Source: Nitrospirota bacterium (GTDB lineage: Bacteria > Nitrospirota > Nitrospiria > Nitrospirales > Nitrospiraceae). Taken from it: 45,858 nt of DNA. A program made the position numbers and the translations under genes. The notes beneath the pieces are model-generated. The model had not been told where the DNA came from and did not search any database. It saw only the letters and a list, made by a program, of their open reading frames with translations. How positions within the stretch are numbered: the stretch's first letter is position 1; every line of letters starts with the position of its first letter. Of this stretch, positions 1-7,455 are shown in pieces. The stretch is taken from contig JAUXQT010000095.1 in NCBI GenBank assembly GCA_030682135.1, positions 1-45,858 of the forward strand, in the 5' to 3' direction.

Positions 1-784
1 AGGGCGAGAACACCCCCGAATCGCCGACTTTCAATTGCCCTGCCGTAATGCGTCCGGCGATGATGCGGCGGGCGTCGAACTTGTACACGTCCTGAACCGG
101 CAGGCGAAGCGGTTGCTCGGAGCGCCCAGGCTCCTTCCTAAACGCACTAAGCGCATCCAGCACGGTCGGACCGCTATACCAGGGCATCTGCTCGCTCCGG
201 TTGGCGATGTTATCGCCGAGCTTGGCGCTGACAGGAATGATTTGTTGCGGAACCGCCTTGAACTGCCCGAGGAACTCGCGATATTCCTTTTCGATCGCGT
301 CGAACACATCCTGCTTGTAGCCGACCAGATCCATCTTGTTCACGACCACGGCAAACTGGCGGACGCCCAGGAGCGACAAGAGATAGCCATGCTTCTTGGA
401 CTGCTCCTTCACGCCCTCCAAGGCATCGATCAACAACAACGCCCCTTCAGCCCGGGCCGCCCCGGAAATCATGTTCTTGAGAAATTCCTTATGCCCCGGC
501 GCATCGATGATGATGTATTGCCGGCCCTTCCAGCCGAAAAAGGTCCGAGCCGTATCGATCGTGATGCCCTGCTCCTGCTCTTCCAGAAAGGCATCGAACA
601 GGAACGCGTACTCGAATTCCTTCCCCTGTTGCTGACAGATGGCTTGAACTTTTTCGAGCTTGCCGTCCGGCAACGATCCCGTATCGGCATAGAGCCGCCC
701 CAGCAAGGTAGACTTGCCATGGTCCACATGCCCGACGATAACGATATTTAAATTGTCAGATGGTTTCGAAATCATTTCCGTCAT
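1..784 (-). CDS. cysN: Sulfate adenylyltransferase subunit 1 (CysN), GTPase; 3' part outside window
   Basis: CysN is the regulatory GTPase of ATP sulfurylase. It couples GTP hydrolysis by its own subunit to APS formation by CysD in the cytoplasm. The 261 visible residues hold the full EF-Tu-like GTP-binding domain: GHVDHGKST at residues 18-26, then DAPGH, NKMD and SAK motifs. They end in the start of the beta-barrel domain, and the reading frame runs off the left edge, so a fused CysC kinase cannot be excluded. The start is ATG at 784; a second ATG lies three codons in. It is last in the Rrf2-sir-cysH-trpD2-cysD-cysN order, and a long inverted repeat separates it from cysD. Confidence 0.95.
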
Positions 785-922: not shown

Positions 923-1744
923 CTACATGTAGCCGTCTTTGCGGAGCAACTCCATCCCGCGCCCTTCATCCTGCGCGCGGCCCGATCGCTCCGCGACTGT
1001 GGTATGCCGCAATTCGTCAATAATCTCATCCACGGTCTTCGCCGTCGATTTGATCGGCGTGGTACAGGGGGCACAGCCGAGACTGCGATAACGAGTCCCG
1101 TCCCCCTTGTCGAGATAGAGATCGATGAAGGGAATGTTCTCGTATTTGATGTATTCCCAAATGTTGATTTCCGTCCAATCCAGCAACGGATGGATCCGGA
1201 TATGGGTCCCCGGAGGAAAGGTCGTCTTAAATTGATCCCAGAGTTCCGGTGGCTGATCGCGGAAATCCCAATCGCCATGTTTGTCGCGCGGTGAGAAATA
1301 GCGCTCCTTGGCTCTGGTCCCTTCCTCGTCTGCCCGCACACCGAGAATGATGCCCGTATAGCCCTTTTGTTCGATCAATTGCTTGAGCCCATTGGTTTTC
1401 AAGGCGGTACAGCAATTGACGCGGCCCAGCGTATGGTTCATCCCGGCCGCGAGCGCTTCCTTGTTTTGCCCCACGACCAATTTCAGGCCCCACTCGCGGG
1501 CCACTCGATCCCGATATTCGATCATGGCCGGGATTTTGAAACTCGTGTCGACGTGGAGAAGCGGAAGCGGGACATGGCCAAAAAAGGCTTTTCTGGCCAG
1601 CCACAATAGAACAGTCGAGTCCTTCCCCATCGACCACAACATGGCCAGGTTGTCGAAATGTTTGTAGGCTTCACGGAGAATGTAGACGCTCTGGTCTTCT
1701 AATTGACGAAGATGTCGCACGGACTCGATCCTCTCCTGTGTCAA
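923..1744 (-). CDS. cysD: Sulfate adenylyltransferase subunit 2 (CysD)
   Basis: CysD is the catalytic subunit of the CysDN ATP sulfurylase (ATP + sulfate to APS + PPi). The 273-residue product has the family hallmarks: [16 protein letters not shown] near the N-terminus, the PP-loop SMGKDST at residues 38-44, [21 protein letters not shown] and the C-terminal [10 protein letters not shown] region. The start is not an ATG. A TTG at 1744 overlaps the trpD2 stop (TTGA), and a GTG at 1720 sits 9 nt after a better AGGAGAGG ribosome-binding site. Both give a sensible N-terminus. The overlap suggests translational coupling to the TrpD2-like gene. Confidence 0.96.
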
Positions 1745-2796
1745 TGGGTTCGTCCGGGGACGCCTGTGCCCACCGGCTCCTGTGTCAGCTCTTCTAACTT
1801 TCGTGCCGCAGCTCCTTCTTCAAGCGCTCGACGCGCCAGCGGAATGCAGGCCGCCCACGTCGCCCCTTTGCCTGCGGCGTACAGGATCAAGGCCGCATTC
1901 ATCACGACCCAGTTGTGCGACCCGCCCTGTACCTGATTATGGAGAATCCGCCGAAGCAGATCGGCTTCCTTGTCTCGCTGGTCCGACGGAAAACCGGCCA
2001 TGTCGCGCGGCGTGCCCAGCGGCAATCCGGCATCTTTTGACGCGAACGAGAGAGGGGTAATCCGCTCATCCCGCAATTCCAACACCCTGGTGAGTGCGCT
2101 GATCGACAGCTCCGGGTCGCCTTCCACGCCGCTGACCACCAGCGCCCGCGGGCAGGCCAACATCCGCAACACTTCAGCGGTCTTTTCAAAGTGAGGGGGA
2201 TGAGACAGACCGACGACCTGTGACGCGGCGCGAGCCGGATTTAAGAGTCTCGCAATCGGATGAAAGACGTTCCGCGCGCCCAACTCCTGTCGCATCTCCA
2301 AAAAGCGATAGACCGGGGGATGGTACAAGGCAATGTCGAGATAGGCGAACCCATGTTTCTTCACCGCCTCTGCCGCGACTTTCGGCTCCATGTCGATTGG
2401 CAAGCCCAGGGCCTTGAGCACCCCGGCATTCCCCGCGCGACCGGGAATTCCGTCATACCCATGCATCAACACCGACGCTCCTGCCGATGCTGCCACGATG
2501 GCGGCAGCCGCAAGGGCATGAAAGGTCTCCTGCTTCCCTGCGTAACTCGGCAAATCCACGACACCGAGCTCTCGGGGGATCGGCACAGGCGCGACATACG
2601 AACGTGCGGTCGCGGTCATCGAGGCCAGTTCGGTAACGGACTCCATCTTTATTCTCATGGCAATGAGAAAGGCCCCGATCTGTGCCGGTGTGGCCTCTCC
2701 TTCAATGAGAGCCTTCATCGCCCGCTTCGCTTCGTCCCAGGTCAGATCCTTGGCAGCTCGTGGCCCCTTGGCAATTTTTGCAATAAATTCCTGCAT
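1741..2796 (-). CDS. TrpD2-like protein (anthranilate phosphoribosyltransferase-like, glycosyltransferase family 3)
   Basis: The product of about 351 residues matches the TrpD fold. It has an N-terminal helical domain ([33 protein letters not shown]) and the [29 protein letters not shown] region that corresponds to HP..RELG.RT.FN.LGPL.NP in TrpD. The PRPP-binding GTGGD loop is replaced by a YAGKQETFH stretch and the HGNR loop by HGYDGIPG, so real anthranilate phosphoribosyltransferase activity is unlikely. The ATG at 2796 follows the cysH stop by 5 bp; the open frame extends upstream into cysH, but that is not needed. Its place inside the cys operon hints at a sulfur or cofactor role, which remains unknown. 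Confidence 0.82.
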
Positions 2797-2801
2797 CAAT
2801 A

Positions 2802-3512
2802 TTACGGGGCCTTGTGTAACCCGCACTCCGTCTTGGTAAAATTTTTCCAGCGGCCCGCGCGGGGGTCTTCGCCTGGCATCACTGGGCTCGTACAATGGGT
2901 GCAGCCGATACTGGGGTAGTCGCGGTCGTGCAATTCATTGTAGGGAACCTCGTAGACACGAATGTAGGTCCAGACATCCTCCCACGTCCACTTCGCGAGG
3001 GGATTCACTTTGGCCAGCTGAAACTTCTGGTCCCACTCGATCAGCTTGGCATGGGCTCTCGTGGGAGACTGGTCCCGCCTGATGCCGGTAATCCAGGCGT
3101 CGAATCCCTTCAACACACGGGTGAGCGGCTCCACTTTGCGCAATTCGCAACATTGATCGGGATGGCGCGTCCATAGAGTCTCGCCATGCTGAGCCGCCTG
3201 CTGCTCCGGCGTCAGCAGCGACTTCACTTGAATGACCTGTTGCGGCTGTAGCCCGTACTGCGCGATCACACGCTCGCGCGTCGCGTAGGTCTCAGGAAAC
3301 AGGAACTCCGTATCGAGATAGAAGAGCGGCAGGGATGGATCGATGCGATGGACCATGTCCAAGAGCACGACATCCTCCGCTCCGAAACTGCAAGCCAGCA
3401 CGATCTTTGGCGCAAACCGCTCAATCACCGCGGTCAACAGCTCCTGTGGCTGCTTCGCCTCGAACGTGTCACCCCAGGCGTTCAATTCTTCCGATGAGAG
3501 TTTCATTTCCAT
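2802..3512 (-). CDS. cysH: Assimilatory APS/PAPS reductase (CysH), iron-sulfur type
   Basis: The enzyme reduces adenylyl sulfate (or PAPS) to sulfite with thioredoxin. The 236 residues contain the PP-loop region CSFGAEDVVLLD (41-52), GIRRDQSPTR (143-152), the catalytic-tail motif ECGLH (Cys230), and two cysteine pairs, Cys121-Cys122 and Cys204-x2-Cys207. The CC...CxxC set is the [4Fe-4S] ligand signature of APS reductases and is absent from E. coli-type PAPS reductases, so APS is the likelier substrate. That fits the absence of a visible cysC. The start at 3512 (MEMK) or two codons later is equally plausible. It lies between the sulfite reductase and trpD2 genes. Confidence 0.95.
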   Translation of the reverse strand: MEMKLSSEELNAWGDTFEAKQPQELLTAVIERFAPKIVLACSFGAEDVVLLDMVHRIDPSLPLFYLDTEFLFPETYATRERVIAQYGLQPQQVIQVKSLLTPEQQAAQHGETLWTRHPDQCCELRKVEPLTRVLKGFDAWITGIRRDQSPTRAHAKLIEWDQKFQLAKVNPLAKWTWEDVWTYIRVYEVPYNELHDRDYPSIGCTHCTSPVMPGEDPRAGRWKNFTKTECGLHKAP

Positions 3513-3633: not shown

Positions 3634-6132
3634 TCACTCTACTTTTTCGACCAGAATCCGAAAATGAGCCGCCTCGGCTTCGAGCGGTTCCTGCAACAAC
3701 AGCTTATGCCCGTCGTTCTTCAAGCTGAGCGGCACGTTCTTGATGGGTTCGCCCGCATCCAGCCAAACTTCCAACTGCTCGCCCGCATCCATCATCTCAA
3801 GTTTCAACTTCGTCTTCACATAGTTGAGAGGGCAGGCCACCCCCCGCAGATCGTACACCGGTGCACCGGACGCAGCAGGCGCGGTGACAGAAGACAACGC
3901 TGGCTTCACCTCCGGCGTCGGGTTGGCCGTCACCACTGTGGCCTGGCCCACCGCAGCCAACTTGAGATCTTTACCCATCTGCTCCGTGGCGGAACGGCAG
4001 GCATCGACGAAACCCTTCGCAAACACCATCTTCTCGCGGGCCGATTCGCCGGTCGTCTCCTTGGGCCCTAAATCGCCAACACTCTTTCTCAAGTCCCGAT
4101 ACATCGCCGGAACGATGCCCTTCTGTGCAATGCGGCTATCGAACTCGAAGAAAGTTTCCGCATCGGTCGAGGGCTCCAGTCCTTCCGTCACGAGCAACGC
4201 CTTCGCAGCGGACAACACGGCCCGATAGGACTTGTTCACCGACACGGAATACTGATGGTTATCGACAAGCAGCTTCGCCTGATAAAGCTCTTGATCCGCT
4301 TCAAGAATGCCGTTCTCGATCATTTCAAGCGCGCCACCGGCGCATTCGCCTGGTCCGAGATCTTCCAGCACGAACTCCGCCTCACCTTCCCAGTCGTAGT
4401 AAAACGTGGGGTCCTCTTGAAAGGATGGAACGATGGTATAGGGAATCAGCTCGTCTTTGAGTTTGATCTTCCCGACGCGATCGATGAAGGCCGGCAACCC
4501 TTCACCGGAAAGGCGATCTCGCCGATAGACACGAATCAAATGGGTGATCGCCGCCGACACGCTCTTCGCCGGCAACTTCACCACCATCTGCCCGATCTTC
4601 GCGGTCCCGTCGACCTTCCCGCCCAAGTGCAATTCATAGAACGGCGCGACATGATCGGCAATCCGCTTCCCGACACCATGCAAACCAATCGTGGCAATAT
4701 GGTGTTGGGCGCAGGAGTTGTGGCAGCCGCTAATCTTGACCGTGACGTCATGTAAATCTTCGGGAACCCGCCCGGCAGGGAACACCTCGGCCAAGGCCCT
4801 CGCGAGCCCCTTGGAAGACGTGATCCCCAGACCGCATGTATCGGTACCGGGGCAGGCGATAATATCTTCAACCAATTCGGCGCCGGGATCGGCCAAGCCC
4901 TGTGAGGCCAAATCGGCATAGAGGTCTGCGATACGCGACTCCGGTATCCAGCGAATAATCATGTTCTGATTGATCGTCGTCCGAATGTTGCCATTGGAAT
5001 AGCGATCGGCAAGATCGGCGATGAGCAGCATCTGCTCTGTCGTGAGATCGCCCATGAAGAGCTTGGTCACGGCGGCGACATAACCTTCTTGCTTCTGTCG
5101 CACCACATTGGTCCGGCGCCACATCTCGAACGGTGTCTCCGCTGGCGCGCCATTGGCATGGCCATTGGTCTGCCCCGCCGCCTGCTTCGGCCGACTCGAC
5201 GTCGGCATGATGAGGGGAACGGGTTCATCCGGATACGACAGCAATTTGATGGGCTCATGGATCGGACGGGCATGCCCCATCGACACATAGGCCTCTTCCC
5301 AACGACGTTTGAACTCCTCGAAGCCCAGCTTTTCGATCACGAACTTCATCCGGGCCTTCGTCCGATTCTTTCGATTGCCCAAGGTATCGAACACTCGAAT
5401 CACCGCTTCGACACTCGGTATGAGTTCATCCATCGGGGTGAACTCCCGGAGGACCTGGGCCAGGCGAGGAGCCGAACCGAGTCCGCCGCCTGCCACCATG
5501 CGAAAGCCGATGACTCCATCGGCACGTTTCGCTGCGAGCAGACCGACATCGTGAATCGGTGTAAGGGCGCAATCCTGTTTGCAACCGGAGAACGCGATCT
5601 TGAACTTTCGGGGAAGGCTCTGGTTGAGCGGGTTCCGCAACAGGTGCTGCGCCACGGTTTTCGCATAGGGCGTCACGTCGAACACTTCTCCCTGACAGAC
5701 CCCGGCAAGGTGGCAGGCCGTCACGTTACGAACGGTATTGGCGCAGGCCTCTCTCGTCGTTAACCCGACCTCCGCCAGCCCGCGCATGATGGTCGGCACA
5801 TCTTTGAGTTCGACGAAATGCAACTGAATATCCTGACGCGTCGTGACATGCCCGACCCCGGTGGCATATCGCTCGGTCAATTCTGCAACACGGCGAAGCT
5901 GATTGGCCGTCATGCCTCCGAACGGAATCTTGATACGAACCATCTGGACACCGGCTTGCCGCTGTCCGTAAATGCCGTATTGGAGACGAAACGGCCTGAA
6001 CAGATCGCTCGACACATCACCGGAAACCAGGCGCATCGCCTCGGCTTCAAAGGTCTCGATCTCCTCGGCAATGGCGGGAGAAATGGGCTCTGTCTTGATC
6101 GGAACAGTACTCAGTGGTGTATGACTCATCAT
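3634..6132 (-). CDS. Sulfite/nitrite reductase hemoprotein with two complete siroheme-[4Fe-4S] motif sets and C-terminal TusA domain
   Basis: Predicted assimilatory sulfite reductase (sulfite to sulfide), 832 residues. Each pseudo-symmetric half carries a full C-x5-C...C-x3-C cluster motif: Cys140/146/184/188 in the first half and Cys427/433/470/474 in the second, joined by an Asn/Gly/Ala-rich linker at about 320-333. In classical CysI and NirA only the C-terminal half keeps the ligands. Residues ~585-720 form an extra helical region, possibly HEPN-like. Residues ~757-832 are a TusA/SirA domain (YDLRGVACPLNYVKTKLKL, Cys767). The start is ATG at 6132 or 6129; the second is better spaced from GAGG. 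A role in nitrite reduction cannot be ruled out from sequence, but the cys context favours sulfite. Confidence 0.9.
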   Translation of the reverse strand: MMSHTPLSTVPIKTEPISPAIAEEIETFEAEAMRLVSGDVSSDLFRPFRLQYGIYGQRQAGVQMVRIKIPFGGMTANQLRRVAELTERYATGVGHVTTRQDIQLHFVELKDVPTIMRGLAEVGLTTREACANTVRNVTACHLAGVCQGEVFDVTPYAKTVAQHLLRNPLNQSLPRKFKIAFSGCKQDCALTPIHDVGLLAAKRADGVIGFRMVAGGGLGSAPRLAQVLREFTPMDELIPSVEAVIRVFDTLGNRKNRTKARMKFVIEKLGFEEFKRRWEEAYVSMGHARPIHEPIKLLSYPDEPVPLIMPTSSRPKQAAGQTNGHANGAPAETPFEMWRRTNVVRQKQEGYVAAVTKLFMGDLTTEQMLLIADLADRYSNGNIRTTINQNMIIRWIPESRIADLYADLASQGLADPGAELVEDIIACPGTDTCGLGITSSKGLARALAEVFPAGRVPEDLHDVTVKISGCHNSCAQHHIATIGLHGVGKRIADHVAPFYELHLGGKVDGTAKIGQMVVKLPAKSVSAAITHLIRVYRRDRLSGEGLPAFIDRVGKIKLKDELIPYTIVPSFQEDPTFYYDWEGEAEFVLEDLGPGECAGGALEMIENGILEADQELYQAKLLVDNHQYSVSVNKSYRAVLSAAKALLVTEGLEPSTDAETFFEFDSRIAQKGIVPAMYRDLRKSVGDLGPKETTGESAREKMVFAKGFVDACRSATEQMGKDLKLAAVGQATVVTANPTPEVKPALSSVTAPAASGAPVYDLRGVACPLNYVKTKLKLEMMDAGEQLEVWLDAGEPIKNVPLSLKNDGHKLLLQEPLEAEAAHFRILVEKVE

Positions 6133-6136
6133 GACC

Positions 6137-6586
6137 TCAAATATGATACATCAACGACCGCTCCTGCTCGAGCTCTCGCTGCTGCCCGGCTAATTCTTCC
6201 ACGCTGATCGCTTCGAGCACATGGCGCTCCGCTTGATGAACCTGCTCCCACATCTTTCCAAGCAGCAACTCCGGCTTGCTCAGCCGTTTCACCTGTGCAC
6301 GCCCAGCGCCGCCGCTCGGGGTTGAAAGCGGACCATCGAGCGCCTCAAGGATCTCGACGACCGATACTTCAGACGGTTTCCTCGACAATACATAGCCCCC
6401 TTGAGCGCCTCGAAGGCTCGACACAAGACCGGCCTTCTTCATCCCATGGAGGACCTGTTCGAGAAAGCGAGCAGGGATGGCTTGCCGGCGTGCAATCGAT
6501 TTGGCCTGAACAGGCGCCGTCCCAAGATGCATCGCTAAGTCGACAGCCGCCATGATCCCGTACGTTGCCCTCAAAGACACTTTCAT
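6137..6586 (-). CDS. Rrf2-family transcriptional regulator of the sulfur operon
   Basis: The 149-residue protein is a typical Rrf2 winged helix: MKVSLRATYGIMAAVDLA at the N-terminus, the recognition region PARFLEQVLHGMKKAGLVSSLRG, and GGYVLSRKPSEVSVVEILEALDG. It lacks the three-cysteine Fe-S motif of IscR and NsrR, so it resembles CymR/CysR-type regulators that sense sulfur status through partners or ligands. It is first in the operon, 4 bp before the sulfite reductase start. GGAAT/ATTCC repeats sit just upstream of its own start, so it probably autoregulates and controls the whole cluster. The effector is unknown. Confidence 0.9.
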   Translation of the reverse strand: MKVSLRATYGIMAAVDLAMHLGTAPVQAKSIARRQAIPARFLEQVLHGMKKAGLVSSLRGAQGGYVLSRKPSEVSVVEILEALDGPLSTPSGGAGRAQVKRLSKPELLLGKMWEQVHQAERHVLEAISVEELAGQQRELEQERSLMYHI

Positions 6587-6656: not shown

Positions 6657-6864
6657 GTCACCCCTCCATGATTTTTCTCGCCACATGATCCTGAGAATTT
6701 GACTGTGGGACCAGGAGGCAGGCCCTTCATCCGGCAACGTGAGCCTCGCCGATTTCCTTCCACGCGAGCCAACAAGAACAGCACGTTCTCTATTTTCCTC
6801 GTTGACATCAAATGGGCTCTGGGCAATAATCCGCACCACTTTTCGCCCTTCTCCTGGAACCTGC

Positions 6865-7455
6865 ATGTCGCCTACATCTTCCGTCTTCAGTATTTTGCTC
6901 CTCTGCGGCGACCCAGACGTCCAGAGTCAGGTCAGCCACATCTTCAAAGATGCCTCTGTGACGATGGCAAAAGACGCGGCCGTTTTGCCGAAAGAGGCAG
7001 CGCGACGCACCTTTGATGTCGTCATCGTCGAGTCGAAACCAGGATCGTCCGATGGAACCGCTGCCATCCCCACCAATGTGAATCTCACGCAGACCCTGCT
7101 CATCACCGGTTCTCGAACCGTGCTCAAACGAGCCTCCAAATCCATGCAGGCGATCGCGCGGCAGAATAGTACGGGAGCGAACGGAAAAGACGCCCTGTCG
7201 CTTGAGGACTATCTCGAATGGAAGATGGGAGATTTCGTGAAGGGGATGCGAAACGGTTCGGGACGCAACCTGCATCCCATGTTGATCACGGCCATCGAAC
7301 GGCCCCTGATCACCAGAGCGCTTCAGGAAACCAACGGCAACCAGATCCAGGCAGCAGAGCTATTAGGCTTGAACCGGAACACCCTTAGAAAAAAGATCCA
7401 CGACCTGCATATTCCCGTAAAACGGAATCGGACTGCGCAGACGCGAGAAACCTAA
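6865..7455 (+). CDS. Fis-type HTH protein with degenerate receiver-like N-terminus
   Basis: The 196-residue protein ends in the Fis/NtrC DNA-binding domain: residues ~138-183, with ERPLITRALQETNGNQIQAA followed by the HTH helix LLGLNRNTLRKKIHDL. The N-terminal ~80 residues (ILLLCGDPDVQSQVSHIF, FDVVIVES) look like a response-regulator receiver but lack a clear phosphoacceptor Asp pair, and there is no AAA+ domain. ATG at 6865 is preferred over a GTG at 6739, because the upstream extension is non-conserved-looking and its AGGAGG lies too far away. The protein may be a nucleoid or transcription factor. HU follows on the same strand about 100 bp downstream. Confidence 0.75.
   Translation: MSPTSSVFSILLLCGDPDVQSQVSHIFKDASVTMAKDAAVLPKEAARRTFDVVIVESKPGSSDGTAAIPTNVNLTQTLLITGSRTVLKRASKSMQAIARQNSTGANGKDALSLEDYLEWKMGDFVKGMRNGSGRNLHPMLITAIERPLITRALQETNGNQIQAAELLGLNRNTLRKKIHDLHIPVKRNRTAQTRET

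Follow-up and report, generated by a model that had tools for sequence, protein, structure and literature searches.

Genomic context and overall architecture of the fused sulfite reductase

The window, that is the whole stretch of 45,858 nucleotides analyzed here, carries on its minus strand a gene (3634..6132) encoding a protein of 832 residues in which a sulfite reductase is fused to a HEPN domain and a TusA domain. The gene has an ATG start and a stop codon at 3634-3636, and its extent is supported by the open reading frame, the Pfam matches and full-length Nitrospirota relatives. Pfam analysis revealed two NIR_SIR_ferr and two NIR_SIR domains, in addition to a HEPN and a TusA domain. The N-half of the reductase (residues 55-280, 5293..5970), composed of one NIR_SIR_ferr and one NIR_SIR module, contains the cysteine set C140-x5-C146 and C184-x3-C188 (5569..5715, located by alignment of relatives), termed the N-set hereafter. 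The C-half (residues 338-560, 4453..5121), assigned by Pfam and by matches to CysI, NirA and DsrB, contains the set C427-x5-C433 and C470-x3-C474 (4711..4854), which corresponds by alignment to the canonical siroheme-[4Fe-4S] ligands. A GPGECAGG motif with Cys597 (4333..4356), invariant in the Nitrospirota representatives, sits between the reductase and the helical HEPN domain (residues 603-720, 3973..4326), and a TusA domain with Cys767 in its CPxN motif (residues 758-832, 3637..3861) forms the C-terminus; the latter two domains were both assigned by Pfam and by fold match. All these features are on the minus strand, and the residue numbers that an earlier note had given for the nine cysteines of the two sets and the CPxN motif are exact in the translation.

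Two fused NIR_SIR_ferr and NIR_SIR modules in a single chain are a trait of the assimilatory sulfite reductases (aSirs) NirA and CysI, and the reductase fold matches that of M. tuberculosis NirA (1zj8) with a VIA-align Z of 16.8. The full-length AlphaFold2 model has a pLDDT of 59 and a pTM of 0.44, a low confidence that results from the shallow alignment behind it.

The neighboring genes of the cluster are also encoded on the minus strand. The first gene (6137..6586) encodes an Rrf2-family regulator, whose nearest specific model is CymR, below the cut-off, and adjoins the reductase gene in Nitrospirales. On the other side of the reductase gene lie cysH (2802..3512), the conserved next gene, encoding an APS/PAPS reductase with a CC...CxxC cluster motif (PRK02090, 275 bits); a TrpD2-like gene of the glycosyltransferase-3 family (1741..2895, Pfam), found in the cys operon of most Nitrospirales loci; cysD (923..1744), encoding a sulfate adenylyltransferase subunit (PRK05253, 363 bits); and cysN (1..751), encoding the GTPase subunit of sulfate adenylyltransferase (Pfam GTP_EFTU), which adjoins cysD in relatives and is cut here by the contig end. 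The 5' end of the glycosyltransferase-3 family gene overlaps cysH, and its true start is probably later. A plus-strand ORF (6739-7455) with a Fis-like C-terminal helix-turn-helix is divergent from rrf2.

Across Nitrospirales the gene order is rrf2 - SIR - cysH - (glycosyltransferase-3 family gene) - cysD - cysN, and several deeper families have the order rrf2 - (tauE) - aprA - aprB - SIR - sat. The aprA-aprB-SIR-sat arrangement, accompanied by rrf2 and/or tauE, is found at loci L149, L150, L151, L153-L156, L159 and L164, where AprA was identified by NCBIfam PRK06854 (775-786 bits, above cut-off) and Sat also above cut-off, and AprB matched TIGR02060 below cut-off. These loci look like sulfate assimilation via AprAB in place of CysH. 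Each of the two gene orders covers the steps from sulfate activation through APS reduction to the reduction of sulfite. The only NIR_SIR proteins of the source genome are the fused reductase and NirA, and neither dsrA nor other dsr genes were found in that genome. None of 100 Nitrospirota genomes contains both DsrA, present in 40, and a member of the fused reductase family, present in 33 (Fisher p 4e-10, a value overstated because closely related genomes among the 100 are not independent).

Conservation of the reductase in Nitrospirota

The source genome belongs to Nitrospira. A scan of contigs gave only Nitrospira-type loci among the 80 matches listed, in which the identity reaches 98% for the nearest Nitrospira MAGs and is 80% for N. 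moscoviensis. A match to the reductase is present in 41 of the 41 nearest genomes, mostly at full length, and a relative is present in 129 of 295 Nitrospirota genomes sampled across the phylum, a count in which at least one genome (G105) matches solely via a ~33% NirB-like paralogue.

The alignment comprises 153 family members, and the representative set 34 (17 clusters below 70% identity). The four cysteines of the C-half are conserved in all 151 relatives aligned at these positions and in all representatives. In the N-half, C140 and C184 are found in 34/34 representatives and C146 and C188 in 32/34; C130 is also invariant among them. Invariance is limited to 82 of the 516 columns of the reductase core, which include C140 and C184, thus the conservation of the N-set is not due to chance.

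One relative (L102, the same sequence as L015 in a second collection) has an in-frame TAG after ~283 residues and is either a pseudogene or an assembly error. A frame of 1234 residues in L161 was considered as a larger fusion and not accepted, as its extra length comes from extension of the frame upstream, where Pfam gave no match. The locus L168:2914-6168 encodes a NirB/NasB-like protein of 1085 residues, in which a flavin reductase module and a BFD [2Fe-2S] domain are fused to a duplicated NIR_SIR pair; its basic residues are altered, with PNRIN for PRKFK.

Conservation and loss of the N-terminal cysteine set

It has been reported that aSirs fused two copies but kept only one siroheme-[4Fe-4S] (PMC10229431). 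By contrast, 151 of the 153 aligned Nitrospirota relatives have all four N-set cysteines, the exceptions L149 and L150 belonging to one family and both reading C-S-C-H. As the N-set is kept where the aSirs lost theirs, we regard the enzyme as an aSir variant rather than a typical member of the group. Compared to NirA and CysI (1zj8 and E. coli CysI 1aop), it shares the single chain with two pseudo-symmetric halves, the CX5C-CX3C of the C-half, the four basic residues of the N-half and the fold, but retains the N-half cysteine set and adds C597, HEPN and TusA.

The earlier note had put it that the classical enzymes lost the N-terminal set; this proved true of all other single-chain enzymes in the comparison, and PMC10229431 says the same. 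A complete N-set is absent from the CysI proteins of E. coli and Allomeiothermus, Methylocystis NirA, the enzymes of Deinococcus and Streptomyces and one cyanobacterial enzyme, as well as from the sulfite reductases of Sinorhizobium, Pseudomonas, Acinetobacter, Paraburkholderia, Aureibacter and Persicobacter. Remnants are seen in the NirA of the source genome (C-S-C-C), a second Nitrospirota NirA (C-N-C-C) and Thermus (C-S-C-H), whereas the CX5C-CX3C of the C-half is common to all single-chain sulfite/nitrite reductases compared. The full N-set pattern is present in Nitrospirota DsrA and in the single-half AsrC. Both AsrC and Fsr are one-half modules with complete CX5C-CX3C and basic residues that provide a model of the pre-duplication state, but they are not duplicated in one chain.

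Sequences outside Nitrospirota were sampled through plasmid records only, and the nearest among them are the "nitrite/sulfite reductases" of Thermus oshimai, alphaproteobacteria, Pseudomonas and Acinetobacter, at 34-43% identity. Their genes adjoin cysH or DUF934, and Thermus has the cysH neighborhood in addition to the C597 tail; however, the N-set is missing or half lost in these enzymes, which have neither HEPN nor TusA. The Bacteroidota SIR-HEPN proteins of Aureibacter and Persicobacter have the reductase core, the GECAG cysteine and the HEPN region in common with the Nitrospirota enzyme, but lack the N-set and TusA.

In a tree built with the four N-set columns masked, the Nitrospirota family, Thermus, the Bacteroidota SIR-HEPN and the proteobacterial enzymes form one clade with a support of 99. 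The loss in L149/L150 is nested inside the Nitrospirota family and is the sole loss within it. The inner nodes, which bear on the exact order of losses, are weak (45-82). On this sequence evidence, retention of the N-set with repeated loss would fit better than a new gain. A coupling of the N-set with TusA was rejected: L149/L150 have lost two N-set cysteines yet keep TusA, thus the two are not strictly coupled.

In the literature searched, which left most subscription journals outside its scope, no publication reported a fused sulfite reductase in which both cysteine sets are present, or the joining of a sulfite reductase to TusA, and a single-chain reductase with both cysteine sets and TusA appears to be newly described. 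It is of relevance to researchers on siroheme enzymes and on Nitrospira. In the current view, fused aSirs have lost one of two cluster sites (PMC10229431). A Nitrospirota lineage with all second-site cysteines provides a living intermediate for testing second-site loss in siroheme enzymes.

A single set of siroheme and sulfite ligands

The ligand residues of the N-half were mapped onto E. coli CysI by alignment. The sulfite-binding residues R66, R135, K176 and K178 are present in 153/153 relatives and in each of the 34 representatives, all of which also have R99 (the aSir Arg in TTRQ) and Q103. An Arg at the position equivalent to 99, together with CX5C-CX3C in the C-half, has been named as an assimilatory trait, and DsrA carries Thr where aSirs carry Arg (PMC10229431). 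Control mapping on Nitrospirota DsrA, made by eye from the sequences, reproduced this difference (R, T, R, K, K), and the same mapping on Nitrospirota DsrB gave R, TTR, S, R, R.

By pseudo-symmetry, a second site would need R, R, Q, R, K and K at C-half positions 355, 388, 392, 422, 462 and 464, respectively, which face the N-set. In the ligand alignment these positions are mostly non-basic and vary across lineages, with Q/V/F/T/H at 355, Q/G/N at 388, I/L/V at 392, E/V/S/I at 422, G/D at 462 and R/S/T at 464, whereas T386, the counterpart of T97, is invariant in the representatives. Two complete siroheme-[4Fe-4S] motif sets had been described for this protein in the earlier note; the cysteine sets are indeed complete in both halves, but there is a single set of siroheme and sulfite ligands. 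The note had also named missing basic sulfite-binding residues in one half as evidence against the two-site enzyme that it suggested, and these residues are missing from the C-half. Reduction of sulfite by each half would be in line with the completeness of both cysteine sets; nevertheless, no lineage has the residues that a second site would need to bind sulfite, so that this reading is unsupported and we regard it as extremely improbable. Alternatively, the protein might be a monomeric counterpart of DsrAB, in which the N-set holds a structural, non-catalytic siroheme or sirohydrochlorin as in DsrA and catalysis takes place at the C-half cluster (roles of the two Dsr sites according to PMC10229431). 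The CX5C...CX3C pattern of the N-set is the same as at the structural site of DsrA, the N-half aligns with the folds of DsrA and Fsr, and the invariant T386 points in the same direction. However, DsrB, which cradles the porphyrin of DsrA, keeps R, TTR, R and R at the facing positions, whereas the Nitrospirota C-half has lost R66', R99', Q103', R135' and K176' and resembles the C-halves of ordinary aSirs without a second porphyrin, which makes this arrangement unlikely. Since DsrB keeps most basic residues facing a structural porphyrin and the C-half of the Nitrospirota reductase does not, the N-site would most likely contain a [4Fe-4S] cluster but no siroheme.

Similar to DsrAB with DsrC, the Nitrospirota enzyme has two cluster sets per functional unit, one of them catalytic, and may pass the product sulfur to a cysteine carrier. 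They differ in that DsrAB consists of two subunits with inserted ferredoxin domains, a CXnCCX3C motif in DsrB and more porphyrin ligands in DsrB, and in that the carrier DsrC is unrelated to TusA. The present enzyme is a single chain with CX5C-CX3C in both halves, it scores far below the cut-offs of NCBIfam dsrA and dsrB, and a ferredoxin domain was not found by Pfam in its 832 residues. Altogether, the sulfite reductase-HEPN-TusA protein most likely has one working site and represents a known type of enzyme in a conserved variant form, not a two-site machine.

The HEPN domain, Cys597 and the TusA domain

The helical region noted earlier after the reductase, for which a domain search of residues 585-720 had been advised, proved to be a HEPN domain spanning residues 603-720. 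Pfam matched HEPN at 610-656 with an E-value of 7.5e-5, above the gathering cut-off, and the region 603-720 resembles 2hsb (VIA-align Z 15.6, rmsd 2.6 over 117 residues) and 1o3u (Z 14.0); by sequence profile it matched 9xbd/9xbc with an E-value of 0.007. The nuclease motif R-x4-6-H was not found in residues 603-720, which contain a single His, thus the domain is not a HEPN nuclease. A role as a HEPN RNase or toxin was rejected, given the missing motif and no antitoxin partner seen.

Cys597, a feature new relative to the earlier note, lies in a GxGECAG motif that is present in 34/34 Nitrospirota representatives, and also in Aureibacter, Persicobacter and Thermus, where the cysteine is the third residue from the C-terminus. 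This tail cysteine recalls the C-terminal cysteine of DsrC; we note a resemblance only and claim no homology.

The C-terminal domain, previously taken for a TusA-type CPxN carrier, is confirmed as such by a Pfam TusA match at 760-830 (E-value 2e-15, 56.7 bits against a cut-off of 28.6) and by fold matches to TusA (3lvj) and TsuB. TusA and TsuB (YeeD) have the same CPxN-type cysteine motif and fold, whereas in Nitrospirota the domain is fused to a sulfite reductase. C767 is invariant, being found in 148/148 aligned relatives and in 31/31 representatives with a fused TusA. The segment ahead of TusA is of low confidence in the model, and the linker is probably flexible. In three lineages (L165-L167) the reductase-HEPN protein has no TusA domain and a separate tusA gene directly adjoins it on the same strand. 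A relative of 895 residues (L151:3553-6240) has two tandem C-terminal TusA domains.

Proposed function and sulfur transfer

The best explanation of the sequence features is that the Nitrospira reductase would be a ferredoxin-type relative of NirA and CysI that functions as an assimilatory sulfite reductase. We propose that sulfite produced by CysDN and CysH may undergo six-electron assimilatory reduction, with a putative ferredoxin-type electron donor, at a single siroheme-[4Fe-4S] in the C-half, to which the C-half would supply the cluster ligands and the N-half the sulfite-binding Arg and Lys residues. The N-set is presumably an ancestral remnant under selection, most likely holding a non-catalytic [4Fe-4S], probably without siroheme, that might play a structural role or serve as an electron relay. 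C597 and/or C767, joined via HEPN and the flexible linker, would most likely bind the reduced sulfur in persulfide form, so that it could be delivered to acceptors instead of leaving solely as free sulfide. We moderately favor the reading as a reductase of the assimilatory type that has a single siroheme site, an ancestral non-catalytic [4Fe-4S] N-site and a built-in sulfur relay.

The earlier note had suggested that sulfide passes to an attached sulfur-relay domain. The invariant C767 and Cys597, the neighboring tusA in three lineages and the double TusA of L151 speak for this suggestion, though transfer of sulfur to TusA is something we infer. Capture of sulfur as a persulfide is the weakest step of the proposed mechanism: a persulfide is more oxidized than sulfide, so the relay needs either a partly reduced sulfur intermediate or oxidation of sulfide. 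Moreover, CysK/M is able to use free sulfide, thus the relay is not required, and TusA might instead act with a different partner or supply sulfur to the enzyme.

The protein might also be an ordinary aSir that releases sulfide, with TusA and HEPN as passenger or interaction domains, for instance for oligomerization or as a co-produced sulfur carrier for tRNA or Moco, and with the N-set cysteines as a structural relic. The source genome encodes siroheme synthase, CysK/M and two other TusA genes, of which the latter two findings are compatible with this possibility, as is the occurrence of HEPN without TusA in the Bacteroidota relatives and of neither domain in the proteobacterial ones. However, C597, C767 and the N-set are kept in relatives down to ~42% identity, and the lineages with a split-off TusA keep tusA next to the reductase gene, from which we consider an ordinary aSir possible but doubtful. 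It is quite unlikely that a single chain does the work of DsrA, DsrB and DsrC, combining a structural porphyrin-[4Fe-4S] site, older than the loss of this site in aSirs, with capture of a sulfur intermediate from the catalytic siroheme by Cys597 and its transfer to TusA Cys767, such that no assimilated sulfur is released as free sulfide. Oxidative Dsr systems of the Allochromatium type receive sulfur from TusA, and by analogy the TusA domain might bring persulfide sulfur to the siroheme for sulfite to be made. Yet the operon encodes sulfate activation and APS reduction, the active site has assimilatory traits and the source genome has no dsr genes; an oxidative function, very unlikely in our estimation, was rejected on operon content.

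The fused TusA with the invariant Cys597 provides a testable case, for the Nitrospira nitrifiers and the whole phylum, of sulfur channeling during assimilatory sulfate reduction. In the source genome (C93, locus L204), a cluster named by eye comprises CysM, MoeB, threonine synthase, a MoaD/ThiS-like carrier ending in AGGSSCQA, a NIL domain and ThiF. It likely represents a protein-thiocarboxylate route to cysteine or homocysteine, and this CysM/ThiF/MoaD-like cluster could be an acceptor of sulfur from a persulfide carrier.
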